Positions 1-14,491 of a DNA stretch of 22,125 nt are shown in pieces. How positions within the stretch are numbered: the first letter of the stretch is position 1; each line of letters opens with the position of its first letter. The DNA is from a virus: the IMG/VR virus record IMGVR_UViG_3300035698_024167, positions 1-22,125 of that record; one strand, written 5' to 3'. The position numbers and the translations under genes are program-made. The notes under the pieces were generated by a model. That model did no database searches. It was not told the DNA's origin and was given only the letters and a program-made list of their open reading frames with translations.

Positions 1-1839
1 ATCATTATCGTCGATGACCCTTGTTTTGCACCTGAAACTCCTGTACTAACAAGCCATGGAGATGTTTCTATAAAAGACATAAAGGTCGGTGACAAAGTAG
101 TCACAAGATACGGACTAAGAAAGGTCACTTGGAGTGGAGTCACTCAGAAGAATGCCATGGTTTATGATCACGATATAAACGGAAAAGTGCTAACTTGCAC
201 AAAGAGACATAAAATAATAACAAAAAACAGGGGCAAGGTTAGCTTAAGCGAAATAGGCGAAGACACAATAATAAAGTACGAGGAGAGCGTATGGAAGTCA
301 GAAAAATTGGTAAGGCCGAAGTTATTGAATTTAACGGAGTCAAGTACAGAAGATACCCAGAGTCTAAAAGAAAGGCTCATCGAAGATATTTTTTCTCAAG
401 CGGCAATATTGAAAGAAAAATTTCTATTTTACATCGTGCAGTCTGGATGTATCATAACGGAGAAATTCCTGGTGGTTTTCATATCCATCATAAGAATGGC
501 AATGTCGATAACAACGAAATTGAGAATCTTGAAATCAGACCGGGGAGAGAACATTGCTCAGAACATGCGAGGGAAGCTTTTCTCGATCCAAAACACGAGA
601 AAGCTGCAATACAAAGCTTACATGATAACCGTCATCTCGCGAGTGAGTGGCACAAATCTGACGAGGGTAGGGCTAAATCTAGGGAGGTTTATAAAAACTC
701 TCCAATGGTTGAAAAGGTATGCTTGGTCTGCGGAGGAAAGTTCCTCGTTAAAACCATTTCCAGCACAAGACAAAAATATTGTTCCAGAAAATGCAGAATG
801 TCAGAATACAAGCGGCTGGGAATATCAAGCTATGCGCCCAAAAAAAATGGACGTGTACAACATAACTGTTGAGTCTGTCCATGAGTTTGTGGCCAATGGA
901 GTACTTGTTGCAAATTGTGACATTAACGACCGTGAGAGCGAGGCAACCAGACAATCGAAAATTAGATGGTTCGATGGTCTAAAGCCTCTTTTAGTCCCAT
1001 TCAAAGACAAGAAAACTAAGATAGAATTCGAGACGATATATTACATTTCTACTATTTGGCACATGAGAGACTTAACCAATCAGACACTAGAGAAAAACGA
1101 AAAACTTCCAGAAGCTCAAAAGTGGGATGTGGAATCAGAATCTATTTGTAATGATGCGGGAGAAAGCAATTATCCAGACTTTATTTCAAATCAAAAGATA
1201 GCAGAGATCAGAGCTGATATGTCAGACGTGTTTTTTAGTTGTCAGTATATGAATCAGGCCATGATGGAAGGCATGCAGATATTTGACTTCAAAAAGTTGA
1301 CTTTTGTTCGAGAAGAACAGGTGAATATAAAAGATGGACAAATTGTGTGCTTTTTTGACCCTTCTCTCGGCAAGGCTTCTTCGGATTATCCCATGACAAT
1401 TTGGTTTCATGTTCAAGAAGGGATTATGACAATAATAGATGCTATCGATAAAAAGGTTGAGTTGAGTTTGATTGTTCATCAGATAGCTGATCGCAATAAG
1501 AAATATGGATGTCGCACAATAGTTTTTGAGAATAATGGTATCACTTTAATCGAGCAGTCTTTGAAAGATGCTCATGATAGATCGGGTTGGTTAATGCAGT
1601 ATGAACCTATACATCATAGTTCGAACAAAAACGAGAGAATACTTAGTACACAACCAGATTTATATTCCGGGGCAGTTCGCTTCTTATCAGATTACATGAC
1701 TAGATATCCAGAAATGATGAACCAAATAATATTTTATCCGGTGTATGGTCACGATGATGGACCTGACTGTATGGAAATGGGGATTTCTTATTTTAGACAG
1801 CAGCACTTTGTATTCCAAAGATTTGAGGGGTGTTTATAA
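1..1839 (+). CDS. terL: Terminase large subunit (TerL), partial at the 5' end, interrupted by an intein
   Basis: TerL is the packaging motor ATPase and nuclease that pumps DNA into the prohead through the portal and cuts the concatemer. The gene runs in from before the window. Its first seven codons (1-21) read IIIVDDP, a Walker B motif with the paired acidic residues. An intein (22-915) follows, and the terminase resumes at Cys 916-918 with DINDRESEATRQSKIRWF, the usual continuation after a terminase Walker B. The C-terminal extein is about 307 residues. Its RNase H-like nuclease acids are visible: Asp in CFFDPSLG (codon 1357), Glu in IVFENNG (1528) and the HDDGPD cluster (1753-1767). The reading frame is open without a break from base 1 to the TAA at 1837-1839. 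The portal follows, as is usual. Family assignment is firm; the exact subfamily is not determined. Confidence 0.93.
   Translation: MIIVDDPCFAPETPVLTSHGDVSIKDIKVGDKVVTRYGLRKVTWSGVTQKNAMVYDHDINGKVLTCTKRHKIITKNRGKVSLSEIGEDTIIKYEESVWKSEKLVRPKLLNLTESSTEDTQSLKERLIEDIFSQAAILKEKFLFYIVQSGCIITEKFLVVFISIIRMAMSITTKLRILKSDRGENIAQNMRGKLFSIQNTRKLQYKAYMITVISRVSGTNLTRVGLNLGRFIKTLQWLKRYAWSAEESSSLKPFPAQDKNIVPENAECQNTSGWEYQAMRPKKMDVYNITVESVHEFVANGVLVANCDINDRESEATRQSKIRWFDGLKPLLVPFKDKKTKIEFETIYYISTIWHMRDLTNQTLEKNEKLPEAQKWDVESESICNDAGESNYPDFISNQKIAEIRADMSDVFFSCQYMNQAMMEGMQIFDFKKLTFVREEQVNIKDGQIVCFFDPSLGKASSDYPMTIWFHVQEGIMTIIDAIDKKVELSLIVHQIADRNKKYGCRTIVFENNGITLIEQSLKDAHDRSGWLMQYEPIHHSSNKNERILSTQPDLYSGAVRFLSDYMTRYPEMMNQIIFYPVYGHDDGPDCMEMGISYFRQQHFVFQRFEGCL
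281..285 (+). promoter_or_regulatory. Shine-Dalgarno site for the nested HNH gene
   Basis: AGGAG lies five bases before the ATG at 291, inside the intein coding sequence. A good site at ideal spacing, in front of an ATG that opens exactly on a complete endonuclease, supports independent translation of the out-of-frame gene. Confidence 0.65.
291..872 (+). CDS. HNH homing endonuclease nested out of frame inside the TerL intein
   Basis: This is a 193-residue protein read in the -1 frame relative to terL. Residues 9-46 form a basic N-terminal part (EFNGVKYRRYP). Residues 47-82 are an HNH core (LHRAVWMYHNG, HIHHKNGNVDNNEIENLEI, with His66/His67, Asn69-Asn71 and Asn79). Residues 119-128 carry EWHKSDEGRA, a motif common in phage HNH proteins. 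A likely zinc finger follows (Cys144, Cys147, Cys164, Cys168). Such proteins make site-specific breaks that drive copying of the element into intein-less alleles. The ATG has AGGAG five bases upstream. The frame is closed upstream by TAG at 240-242, so no in-frame fusion from the terminase is possible before that point. The TGA (870-872) lies within intein block F. The third frame is closed early (TAA 311, TGA 326). Endonuclease identity is firm; homing activity is inferred. Confidence 0.88.
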   Translation: MEVRKIGKAEVIEFNGVKYRRYPESKRKAHRRYFFSSGNIERKISILHRAVWMYHNGEIPGGFHIHHKNGNVDNNEIENLEIRPGREHCSEHAREAFLDPKHEKAAIQSLHDNRHLASEWHKSDEGRAKSREVYKNSPMVEKVCLVCGGKFLVKTISSTRQKYCSRKCRMSEYKRLGISSYAPKKNGRVQHNC

Positions 1840-1974: not shown

Positions 1975-3459
1975 TTGGCTGAAACATATGAGTTGATACT
2001 AAGACAGAGACACCCTGAATTAAAAAAGAAAGACGAGAATTGGAAACTGATATATAATTCCTACCTCGGTGGAACCAACTTTAGTGAGGCTGGTTATCTT
2101 ATTAAGTACCCAAAGGAGTCTCCGGCATCCTTCGAAACAAGAAAGAAAAGAGCGGTATATTTTAATCAGGTCAGTCCTATTGTCGACATGATGTCAGGAC
2201 TTCTATATTTAAACGAACCTATCAGAAAGATTCCACAGAAATATCATTATCTTGTAGATAACATGAGTGGCGACAAGAAAATAAGTGAGTTTATGCGCAA
2301 CGTATCCGCTCATTCTTTCATGTTCACTTGCGGTGTTTTAGTAGATATGCCGGATTTCAATCCAGAAGTAATCAAAACAAAAAAAGATGCCAATGACAAT
2401 AAAATAAATCCTTATGCAACCTTATATTTACCTTTTCGTATAAGAGATTTTAATATTAACTCTGACGATGGTGGCTTGGATTGGGTTATACTCGACAATT
2501 CTTTTTATGATCATTCAGATCCTATGTCTCTTGGAGTAACGGTAACTCGTTATACGCTTTGGGATAGAATGGGATACGAGAATTTCGAACAAAGGGAAGG
2601 CAGTGAGTCTATAGTTTCTGGAGGCAGAAAAGAACACGGAATTGGTTATGTCCCTTTTCGTTTCGTGAGCTGGAGAGATGATAATAGCGATTTTATCTCG
2701 GAAAGTGTATGTGAAGATATTGCTATGGTCTCTAAATTGATCTATAACAATATGAGTTACATGGATGAAATGCTTGCGGCAGGTACTTTTAAGATGCTTG
2801 CTTATCCGACCAAAACAGGGGAGGTCCCGAAGAGTATGACTATGGGTGGCGTTGGCCCTCTCAGCATAATACCATACGATATTACTGCGAGTACGGCTCC
2901 ATCTTTTATTGGGCATAGTCTTCAAGACGTAGAACCATTCATAAAAGCTATAACTTTTTATATGGCAGAAGTCCTAAAAAAGGTTGGTTTAAGTACAGAC
3001 GAAACAAAAGAATTTGTTAAATCTGGAGCAGCTAAAAAAATAGATTTTCAAAAAATGAAAGCTCTTCTTATTTCTGGTGCATTGATGATGGGAAAATTAG
3101 AAGAGTGGATCTTTAGAACCGCAGGGGCTTGGAATCAGGACTTTTCTGTGGATATTAAAGTTGATTACACTTCTTCTTTTAGTGATGAAGATTTAGTAAC
3201 AGAGGTTACGTTACTTACAGAACTTTTGGTCTTACCTATAAAAACGCTTAACAAAGAAGTCACTAAATTGTTGGTCAAGAAAACTATGGGAAATTATCTT
3301 GAACCGCAGGTGATCGAAGAAATAAATAAAGAAATCGATTCAAGCAATTCAGTTGGAACGATTGAGCAAGAAAGCAAGTCAAGTATAGATGTGAACGCAG
3401 CAGCAGATGTAATCAAAAAAAATACAGACCTAACAGGGCAAGGAGCAACAGATGCTTAG
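1975..3459 (+). CDS. Portal protein
   Basis: The portal forms the dodecameric ring at one capsid vertex, through which DNA enters and leaves; it docks the terminase and nucleates head assembly. From TTG 1975 the protein is 494 residues, normal for portals. The N-terminal part has the typical stretch YPKESPASFETRKKRAVYFN followed by VSPIVDMMSGLLY. The centre holds conserved-looking turns such as GIGYVPFRFVSW. A long helical region (DVEPFIKAITFYMAEVLKKVG) suits the stem/crown. The C-terminus is polar, ending near DLTGQGATDA. Position directly after terL and before a scaffold and capsid gene supports the call. An alternative start at TTG 1909 would add 22 residues but lacks a ribosome binding site. 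The stop overlaps the next gene by eight bases, suggesting coupled translation. Confidence 0.85.
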   Translation: MAETYELILRQRHPELKKKDENWKLIYNSYLGGTNFSEAGYLIKYPKESPASFETRKKRAVYFNQVSPIVDMMSGLLYLNEPIRKIPQKYHYLVDNMSGDKKISEFMRNVSAHSFMFTCGVLVDMPDFNPEVIKTKKDANDNKINPYATLYLPFRIRDFNINSDDGGLDWVILDNSFYDHSDPMSLGVTVTRYTLWDRMGYENFEQREGSESIVSGGRKEHGIGYVPFRFVSWRDDNSDFISESVCEDIAMVSKLIYNNMSYMDEMLAAGTFKMLAYPTKTGEVPKSMTMGGVGPLSIIPYDITASTAPSFIGHSLQDVEPFIKAITFYMAEVLKKVGLSTDETKEFVKSGAAKKIDFQKMKALLISGALMMGKLEEWIFRTAGAWNQDFSVDIKVDYTSSFSDEDLVTEVTLLTELLVLPIKTLNKEVTKLLVKKTMGNYLEPQVIEEINKEIDSSNSVGTIEQESKSSIDVNAAADVIKKNTDLTGQGATDA

Positions 3460-4273
3460 ACAATTTTTAAAGGATGGATATCTGGGTAAATCAACCCCGA
3501 TAACAGTGATGCACGACGAAGGCGATCCGGCAGATATGGGAGCTGGAGCAGCGGAACCAAAGATGGTCGATTTCAAAGATCCTCAGACCGGACAGATGAT
3601 TAAGATACCCGAAAACATGAGCGCTTTGCTTGGGAATATTATTGCCAAGACAAGAAAAGAAACTGAAGGGAAGTACAAACCGACTATTGAAGCACTCGAG
3701 AAAGAAGCAGCAGAGGGGTCACTCTCTAAAGTAGAACTTGAAAAATTACAGCTCGAAGCAATGAGTGCAGAAGAAAGAGCACAAGCTAATGCGAGAAAAG
3801 TGATTGGAGAACATGAAAAGATTGCGAAGACTGCAACAGAAGAGGCACAGAATTGGAGAACTAGATTTGAGAGTTCAACACTCAAAACAGATATCATGTC
3901 GAGCTTTGGTGATTCTAAATTGTGTAACCCAGAGCAAGCAGCAATATTATTCCAGATTGAAGGTGGTGCAAAAATCTCTGAGGTTGTTGACGGTGAAGGA
4001 AAACTTACCGGAAACTTTGAAACCAGAGTCATGCTTTCATTAGAGGGCACAGACGGTAAGCCTGAAGCAGTAGAAGGCACACCGAAAGAGCTTTTCAAAA
4101 GATGGATACAACTTGAGCGAAATTCCCATCATCTCATGAATACGGCGCCTGCGGGTAGTGGTTCAAGAAGCGGTGGTGGTGGAAATAGAGGCGGTATGAG
4201 TGAAGCGGAAATGATGAAGCTGAACCCTACCGAAAGGATGCAACATGCAAGAGATCAAGCAAAGAAACAATAA
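3452..4273 (+). CDS. Capsid scaffolding-like protein
   Basis: This 273-residue hydrophilic protein lies between portal and major capsid genes, the usual place of a scaffold. Residues about 60-150 are Glu/Lys/Ala/Gln-rich and predicted helical or coiled coil (KVELEKLQLEAMSAEERAQA). A more globular part follows (about 150-225). A Gly/Ser/Arg-rich linker near residue 230 leads to a short basic C-terminal helix ending RMQHARDQAKKQ, as in scaffolds that use a C-terminal helix to bind capsid protein. AGGAG lies before the ATG, and the gene overlaps the portal stop. No Ser/His/Asp protease signature is seen, so if the head is processed, the protease is not obvious here. Family membership rests on composition and position rather than a diagnostic motif. 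Confidence 0.72.
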   Translation: MLRQFLKDGYLGKSTPITVMHDEGDPADMGAGAAEPKMVDFKDPQTGQMIKIPENMSALLGNIIAKTRKETEGKYKPTIEALEKEAAEGSLSKVELEKLQLEAMSAEERAQANARKVIGEHEKIAKTATEEAQNWRTRFESSTLKTDIMSSFGDSKLCNPEQAAILFQIEGGAKISEVVDGEGKLTGNFETRVMLSLEGTDGKPEAVEGTPKELFKRWIQLERNSHHLMNTAPAGSGSRSGGGGNRGGMSEAEMMKLNPTERMQHARDQAKKQ

Positions 4274-13367: not shown

Positions 13368-14228
13368 ATGTCGAGATTTCAACTTTATTGCGGTTTAGAA
13401 AGAGAAGGCGAATGGTTCAATTATTCTGAAGTACATCCACTAGAGGGCGGAGTATTGTCAATGCTAGAGGGTGCTGAAAAGACTGGTGCCGCAAGGCTCT
13501 TGAACCTATTGAAAGGTTCTATTACTTCGTTGTTCACTGAAGACGGACAAGAGTATGTGTTGGCTCCGAAGGATTTTGAAGACATTAAAGTCGTGGATTC
13601 TTGGAAAATAGGATATGAAGCGATCAAACTGAAGACAGGCGAAGAACAACCTATAATTACAGAATATTTTCATTGTAGTAGATGCAGTGAAACAAAGAAT
13701 GAAAAATATACTAGAAAAGACGAAAGCTGGCAAAAACTCATAGACGATGGACTTATCGATGAATTTTATTTAGAAACTTCTAAGGATTCTTTTGAAGTCG
13801 AATTGGTAGATCCTATTGAGATACAGCCTGGCAAATCTTTTTCTGGTGGAACATATAGAAAAATAGAGATGAAGCAGTTGAGTATTGGCGATATGTTAAG
13901 AATACATAGAAGTCAAGAGGCTATGTCTAGCCAGGCAAACATGATCAGAGCTACATGGGACGAATGCATCATAAGAATAACTGGAATGTCTGAGGCAGAT
14001 TTCAACAGAATAAAAAAGATACCTGGACAGTCGTTCTCAAAGAAATATCTCGAAACTGAAGCGAACTATCTTGCAGTAGAAGAAGAAATGGATAAAAATA
14101 TAGTTGGTGTAGATGCATGGAGAAGAATTGTGTACTGCGACAACTGTGGAATGGAGATAAGAGAAGGTTTAGATTACACAAATTTTTTCTCACCCTTGTT
14201 GCCGAAAAAGTCCACCCGAAACCGATAA
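13368..14228 (+). CDS. Tail assembly chaperone, short form (lambda G-like role)
   Basis: This 286-residue protein is read in frame to TAA at 14226-14228. The gene lies between tail tube and tape measure, the fixed place of tail assembly chaperones, which bind the tape measure and recruit tube subunits. Two Cys pairs, Cys103/Cys106 (HCSRC) and Cys257/Cys260 (YCDNCG), suggest a zinc ribbon or two metal knuckles. The middle has a helical segment (LSIGDMLRIHRSQEAMSSQ). Ribosomes that slip -1 at 14183-14189 leave this frame after residue 274 and make the longer form. The 12 residues after the slip site (SPLLPKKSTRNR) are unique to this short product. Promoter and dyad lie upstream. A relation to baseplate-hub assembly proteins with zinc ribbons is possible. 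Confidence 0.75.
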   Translation: MSRFQLYCGLEREGEWFNYSEVHPLEGGVLSMLEGAEKTGAARLLNLLKGSITSLFTEDGQEYVLAPKDFEDIKVVDSWKIGYEAIKLKTGEEQPIITEYFHCSRCSETKNEKYTRKDESWQKLIDDGLIDEFYLETSKDSFEVELVDPIEIQPGKSFSGGTYRKIEMKQLSIGDMLRIHRSQEAMSSQANMIRATWDECIIRITGMSEADFNRIKKIPGQSFSKKYLETEANYLAVEEEMDKNIVGVDAWRRIVYCDNCGMEIREGLDYTNFFSPLLPKKSTRNR

Positions 14229-14272
14229 AAGGCGGCTCGGGGCTGTGGTGGTACCCGAGCATAGGCAACAAG
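14180..14272 (+). other. Programmed -1 frameshift signal: slippery site plus nested stem structure
   Basis: In the zero frame the codons read ACA AAT TTT TTC. T-TTT-TTC (14183-14189) is a classic slippery heptamer; the overlapping A-AAT-TTT (14180-14186) also fits the rule. After a five-base spacer, CTTGTTGCC (14195-14203) can pair perfectly with GGCAACAAG (14264-14272). Inside that outer stem, GCTCGGG (14235-14241) pairs with CCCGAGC (14254-14260). Slippage moves ribosomes into the frame that stays open to 14491 and so bypasses the zero-frame TAA at 14226. Site, spacing and structure together make this convincing. Confidence 0.82.
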
Positions 14273-14491
14273 AGCTACCCATATTCGGGATGGGAATTCG
14301 GAATGAGAGAAGCAGCTTGGAATACTTTAGAGAATATAGGTGATTTATATGGGTCTATTTGTAGAATGTTAAGAAATCAATATAAGTGGAGCCCCAATGT
14401 AGTCGATTCAATTACCGTAGACAGACTTTTGAAGATAGTAGAAGAAACGATTGAAGACGCAGAAAAGAACAGTACGGATTTCGACGATTGA
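14189..14491 (+). CDS. C-terminal extension of the tail assembly chaperone, reached by -1 frameshift (lambda GT-like)
   Basis: These 100 residues follow residue 274 of the chaperone when ribosomes slip, giving a fusion of about 374 residues. The sequence begins LTLVAEKVHPKPIKGGSG, then WWYPSIGNKSYPYSGWEFGM, a Trp/Tyr/Pro-rich segment, followed by a helical, acidic end (VDRLLKIVEETIEDAEKN). The frame could also be entered at ATG 14117, but that ATG lies within the zinc-ribbon coding part in another frame and lacks a convincing ribosome binding site, so frameshifting is preferred. In known systems the minor long form binds the tape measure protein, whose gene starts 15 bases downstream. Confidence 0.75.
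   Translation, partial: LTLVAEKVHPKPIKGGSGLWWYPSIGNKSYPYSGWEFGMREAAWNTLENIGDLYGSICRMLRNQYKWSPNVVDSITVDRLLKIVEETIEDAEKNSTDFDD

Follow-up and report, generated by a model that had tools for sequence, protein, structure and literature searches.

An HNH endonuclease gene overprinted on, and not fused to, a viral terminase intein, with related loci in phages and proviruses of bacteria and archaea

The window analysed here, 22,125 bases of a virus fragment from IMG/VR, very probably carries in its terminase gene terL an intein, presumably mobile, whose HNH homing endonuclease is overprinted in a second reading frame and not fused to the intein. As judged from sequence comparison, the intein would splice, the endonuclease would be translated separately and intein-less sites would be cleaved. 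Phages and proviruses of bacteria and archaea contribute 107 loci with the same layout, mostly in TerL. All features of terL, its intein and the HNH gene described below for the window lie on the + strand.

No stop interrupts the terL frame (frame 1) between 1 and 1839. This frame enters the window with the end of the N-extein, the Walker B motif IIIVDDP (1-21), the remaining TerL-N being seen upstream in L017; the upstream half of TerL was supplied by the contig IMGVR_UViG_3300031227_000598, which is 100% identical to the window over the 6836 nt compared, with zero indels. The intein itself spans 22-915 (298 aa) with exact boundaries, from Cys1 (codon 22-24) to a final Asn (913-915); its C-terminus reads ...VYNITVESVHEFVANGVLVAN and is followed by the +1 Cys (916-918). 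The N-terminal Hint half (22-276) holds blocks A and B, with the TxxH motif at intein residues 60-63, and the C-terminal half (832-915) holds blocks F and G and ends in VLVAN. Both curated thresholds are passed, by Pfam Hint_2 (31.3 bits, cut-off 28.4) and by NCBIfam intein_Cterm (TIGR01443; 19.2 bits, cut-off 15.6), so that the earlier note's recognition of all four blocks in an open terL frame holds. In a 55-row alignment, the block A nucleophile Cys1 and the block B residue H63 are invariant and T60 is nearly so. The penultimate residue is Ala and not the His of a typical intein; this His is common in inteins without being universal, and some natural inteins do without it. Among the 107 related loci, the position is occupied by His in 77 and by Ser in 21. 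The C-extein with the +1 Cys (916-1839) matches phrog_38 (1.4e-33), positions 229-410 and 415-706 of phrog_38 align on the two sides of the intein, and the spliced TerL aligns in one piece to the intein-free TerL of ANMV-1 virus (4e-37). In an AlphaFold model of intein residues 1-297, i.e. with the last Asn left out, both ends are confidently modelled as Hint halves (pLDDT about 85-98 over residues 1-80 and 92-96 at the C-terminus), and the best solved structural matches of the model are the gp41-1 and DnaB inteins (E 2e-5). The window intein is thus predicted to adopt the Hint fold and, from its sequence features, to splice. Between the two halves, the overlapped region (289-831) lacks stops in the TerL frame and is weakly modelled, with pLDDT mostly 44-60 and one modelled helix, as would befit a linker.

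In the -1 frame relative to terL, an HNH endonuclease gene of 193 aa runs from the ATG at 291 to a TGA (291-872), so that its 3' end overlaps the C-terminal Hint half at 832-872. It matches Pfam HNH_3 (4e-14) and the PHROG HNH endonucleases (1e-17), and AlphaFold models it with a pLDDT of 90.7. A Shine-Dalgarno sequence, AGGAG (281-285), stands 5 nt ahead of the ATG, with a predicted duplex of -8.9 kcal/mol. The residues of the HNH motif region (483-554; H66, H67, N75, N79, H88) and the four cysteines of a C-terminal zinc finger (720-794; C144, C147, C164, C168) are invariant in alignments of 13 and 36 proteins, and the third frame closes at 311 (TAA) and 326 (TGA). The earlier note had described this gene, its ribosome binding site, its zinc finger and both third-frame stops, and each was found again. 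Promoter and terminator scans near the gene gave nothing above expectation. Its own start signals suggest that the endonuclease may be translated separately, and it may cut empty sites. Canonical inteins, whether HNH or LAGLIDADG, have an endonuclease that shares the frame of the splicing domain, whereas the window's lies in the -1 frame relative to that domain. The nearest solved sequence to this HNH family, and weakly also the nearest fold, is I-HmuI (PDB 1U3E), likewise an HNH homing endonuclease but encoded in a group I intron and associated with no intein.

With 13 aligned HNH proteins as the query, relatives were gathered at 80 viral loci and 76 loci from bacterial or archaeal genomes. 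At 107 of these, an open ORF shows recognisable N- and C-blocks of an intein and contains, out of frame, an HNH gene of the same family; within this count, L154 and L155 look like one sequence present twice, and the block matches of a few loci are weak (L153, L130). The layout is therefore widespread and not unique to the window, which corrects the earlier note. Annotated terL ORFs with a -1 frame HNH gene inside occur in Rhodobacteraceae phage LS06-2018-MD07, Acinetobacter phage Highwayman and Tetrasphaera phage TJE1. Each of the four annotated records that were inspected (L018, L019, L020, L186) lists the host ORF alone and leaves the HNH gene unannotated. Most of the 100 N-exteins scanned match terminase families (Terminase_3 in 35, Terminase_6N in 34). 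Copies from genomes have archaeal hosts (L107, L123) as well as hosts in many bacterial phyla, and a Halobacterium plasmid also carries the layout. A search of phages at the DNA level with the window's terL gave no match. Elsewhere in the window, a pair of overlapping ORFs (13368-14491) with a TTTTTT run near 14184-14190 separates the likely genes for tail tube and tape measure, a location consistent with a tail assembly chaperone pair produced by frameshifting.

The open terL frame is hardly due to chance, as the earlier note had estimated. When synonymous codons of the window were resampled with the HNH protein held fixed, 8.4 stops were expected in the terL frame where none is observed, and not one of 2000 draws was stop-free; the stricter test of permuting the ORF's own codons gave 3.8 expected stops (p = 0.002). 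Across the 107 loci, no host-frame stop was observed against 621 (resampling) or 278 (permutation) expected. At 44 further loci that carry an HNH of this family, by comparison, 267 stops were observed, close to the 293 or 264 expected by the two procedures. These figures bear on the idea that the HNH gene is intron-encoded or free-standing, that the terL frame is open by coincidence and that TerL is restored by RNA splicing. The group I intron origin of I-HmuI would speak for it, as would the free-standing copies of the family that adjoin terminase genes. Yet an Rfam scan of the window at gathering thresholds returned no family and no group I intron core, intein blocks with catalytic residues stand on both sides of the HNH gene, and the stop-free frame (p <= 0.002 in the window, 0 against 278-621 stops over the 107 loci) leaves this account a very slim chance.

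Since freedom from stops was part of how the 107 loci were defined, we also ran a block search blind to frame. It yielded 126 loci in which the HNH gene is flanked by both blocks; 106 of them are continuous and stop-free. Three others comprise one locus with a single stop (L113), one with a frame change (L112) and one with an in-frame HNH (L172), and the last 17 have several stops or halves in different frames, i.e. split or broken inteins. L172 (1230-4175) is a terminase-like gene with a canonical in-frame HNH intein whose HNH is weakly related to the family. The HNH gene has the same phase as in the window at 102 of the 107 loci and the other phase at five; this bias is explained by the HNH+1 frame expecting far fewer stops per gene (~5) than the HNH+2 frame (~16). 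At L063, L064, L092, L130 and L153, the gene is in the HNH+2 phase despite about threefold more expected stops. We also considered that an ordinary in-frame HNH intein had decayed, or been misread, through one indel at each edge that put the HNH out of frame. An A-rich run near the 3' edge (about 839-847) and the frame change beside the HNH gene of L112 would be in keeping with such an origin, but the 102 loci of the same phase with similar boundaries and no stops, the second contig identical to the window, and the window gene's own Shine-Dalgarno sequence and stop codon give it next to no credibility. Nor did the searches turn up in-frame relatives with indels at the edges, L172 being the sole in-frame case, or terL-frame stops in relatives other than split or broken inteins and the one single-stop locus, either of which the earlier note had named as grounds for abandoning its interpretation.

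The anatomy of these loci is regular. Inteins are about 270-340 aa long; the HNH gene starts a median of 89 aa past Cys1 (90 in the window) and stops a median of 20 aa ahead of the +1 residue (16 in the window), which is the usual position of the endonuclease in inteins. A good Shine-Dalgarno sequence precedes 59 of 105 HNH starts, compared with 32 of 96 interior controls, and given that proportion internal initiation is not uniformly supported. Where related loci were compared, the HNH frame varies most at its third codon positions, and in every pair the host-frame residues diverge faster than the HNH residues. It follows that the HNH is the conserved protein and that the host frame is mainly held open. 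Constraint on the host-frame peptide beyond the avoidance of stops gave no strong signal (mean hydropathy z 0.49 +/- 0.13, with all else that was measured close to zero), and the overlapped part is modelled as a low-confidence linker between two confident Hint halves. The earlier note's proposal that the intein carries an unfused HNH gene while selection holds the intein frame open is thus backed by the comparative data; its suggestion of selection on both frames stands insofar as both are kept, but the two are treated unequally, with the HNH protein conserved and the host frame essentially only stop-free. The same comparisons weigh against the overlapped HNH being an untranslated relic, retained only because the intein frame is retained. 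Homing endonucleases often decay after fixation, and L103 has a stop in the HNH frame (near 2263) while its host frame is still open, an example of such decay. Slower change of the HNH residues in all pairs, the invariance of the catalytic and zinc residues and an apparently recently mobile copy in phage Highwayman nevertheless make a relic unlikely. The HNH tree has many weak forks, with dual, split and free copies interspersed, and gives no direction of change.

Acinetobacter phage Highwayman looks to carry a recently mobile element. Compared with terL of the near-identical phage Acba_21, its gene has an exact 981-bp insertion and 15 substitutions, none of which lies farther than 163 nt upstream or 13 nt downstream of the insertion. 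The two phages share the first 1052 nt of terL without a difference, and in the gene that follows 6 of 1405 positions differ. Such clustering of differences at the site is what homing with co-conversion during break repair would predict. The uninvaded protein of Acba_21 reads IDKDNHYIDALRYALEK and the invaded one of Highwayman IDKDNHYIDA-intein-CRYAIEK, so that the +1 Cys came with the insertion. At the DNA level, the Highwayman intein was found in no other phage record. When viral contigs were searched by TerL for an uninvaded counterpart of the window's terL, only the identical contig came up. Acinetobacter phage BP10 had been tried as the empty-site partner of Highwayman; its terL proved too different, and Acba_21 was taken instead. 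In BP10, which has a very different terL but a segment of 92% identity downstream, a free-standing HNH gene (L021, 2519-3160) upstream of the small terminase gene encodes a protein 51% identical to the overprinted Highwayman HNH.

We therefore picture one terL mRNA carrying two overlapping reading frames. Ribosomes entering from the terL start would read the whole intein, the Hint halves of which would splice it out, the overlapped 180 residues being tolerated as a linker; other ribosomes would begin at the internal AGGAG/ATG 291 and make a separate HNH endonuclease of 193 aa. This enzyme would cut intein-less terL near the insertion site, and repair would copy the whole intein in. Selection would preserve the function of the HNH and, because TerL is essential, purge stops from the terL frame.

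Two parts of this layout are already known, namely an out-of-frame HNH gene in a non-splicing insertion, as in ShiLan, and fractured genes with split inteins. For the latter, Dassa et al. in 2009 reportedly found split inteins and free-standing endonucleases in fractured genes; as in the window, an unfused endonuclease is said to occupy the endonuclease position between the splicing halves, but the host protein would there be divided over two genes, whereas the window has one read-through ORF overlapped by the HNH gene. The ShiLan methylase insertion resembles the window in that an HNH gene of ~195 aa lies out of frame in a mobile insertion that leaves the host frame open; it differs in having no intein blocks or splicing domain, in being thought not to splice, in its host gene and in a GTG start without a Shine-Dalgarno sequence (Arsenault, Gosselin and Gogarten 2025, PMC11855218). 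Its HNH is weakly related to our family profile (best piece, 19.9 bits), and the layout is described for a few actinophages (PMC11855218). The earlier note, which knew of no described example, had thus missed a published out-of-frame HNH in a phage gene. By analogy, TerL in the window might retain the insert as a loop, with no splicing and only the HNH of consequence. However, the ShiLan insertion is without splicing blocks, while the window has blocks A, B, F and G and a predicted Hint fold; besides, a retained loop of 298 aa in Walker B would be expected to inactivate the ATPase, and we regard this possibility as highly unlikely. PMC11855218 also cites, for overlapping frames in actinophages, a preprint (Gosselin et al. 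2025, bioRxiv 2025.01.02.630785) whose title announces actinobacteriophage inteins of non-canonical architecture and which may therefore already describe inteins with an overprinted HNH. Relative to the actinophage inteins of that title, most of the present loci are non-actinophage, TJE1 of Tetrasphaera excepted. Our literature search brought up no further paper describing a splicing intein with its endonuclease out of frame, a layout that this preprint may cover. The TerL inteins of mycobacteriophages (Kelley et al. 2016, PMC5050341) are like the window's in occupying functional motifs of TerL and in where the homing endonuclease lies within the intein.

The HNH family also occurs between TerL intein halves that lie in separate ORFs (L080, L085, L091 and ~14 more), which makes these loci candidate naturally split inteins. 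Their TerL-C gene is small (about 70-110 aa). In the three named loci the host gene is split, unlike the continuous window ORF (1-1839), giving three genes in the order TerL-N / HNH / TerL-C, and the TerL-N ORF ends just past the HNH start; in L080 and L085, the TerL-C ORF begins with GTG at the HNH stop, behind AAGGTGG. Two loci may be intermediate. In L113, on a Methanimicrococcus contig, the host frame is open through the HNH gene and then meets a single TAG directly before an ATG (3991-3996); this is possibly a nascent split intein, or else, as the contig is from a methanogen, the TAG may be read as pyrrolysine. In L112, which stands beside L049 and L119 on the HNH tree, the N-block is read in one frame and the remaining host ORF in another, the two overlapping briefly (3427-3463), and the downstream host frame remains stop-free over the HNH gene, possibly as a result of a recent frameshift, a sequencing error or a nascent split. 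With somewhat less than even confidence, we propose that overprinted HNH inteins are a major, undescribed intein architecture of viral terminases in bacteria and archaea and an evolutionary bridge from continuous to split inteins. If so, once the endonuclease is translated on its own, one stop and a restart in the host frame would split the host gene, and L113 and L112 would have been caught mid-transition.

Long overlapping genes are regarded as uncommon and as difficult to demonstrate. About 100 diverse loci with the same layout, similar boundaries and avoidance of stops amount to a natural experiment on two frames sharing one stretch of DNA, and gene callers miss this class of overprinted HNH genes. 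The loci indicate that the endonuclease of an intein need not be fused to it. The HNH enzyme probably spreads the intein insert, and the layout would offer a route to split inteins as well as many candidate new inteins.
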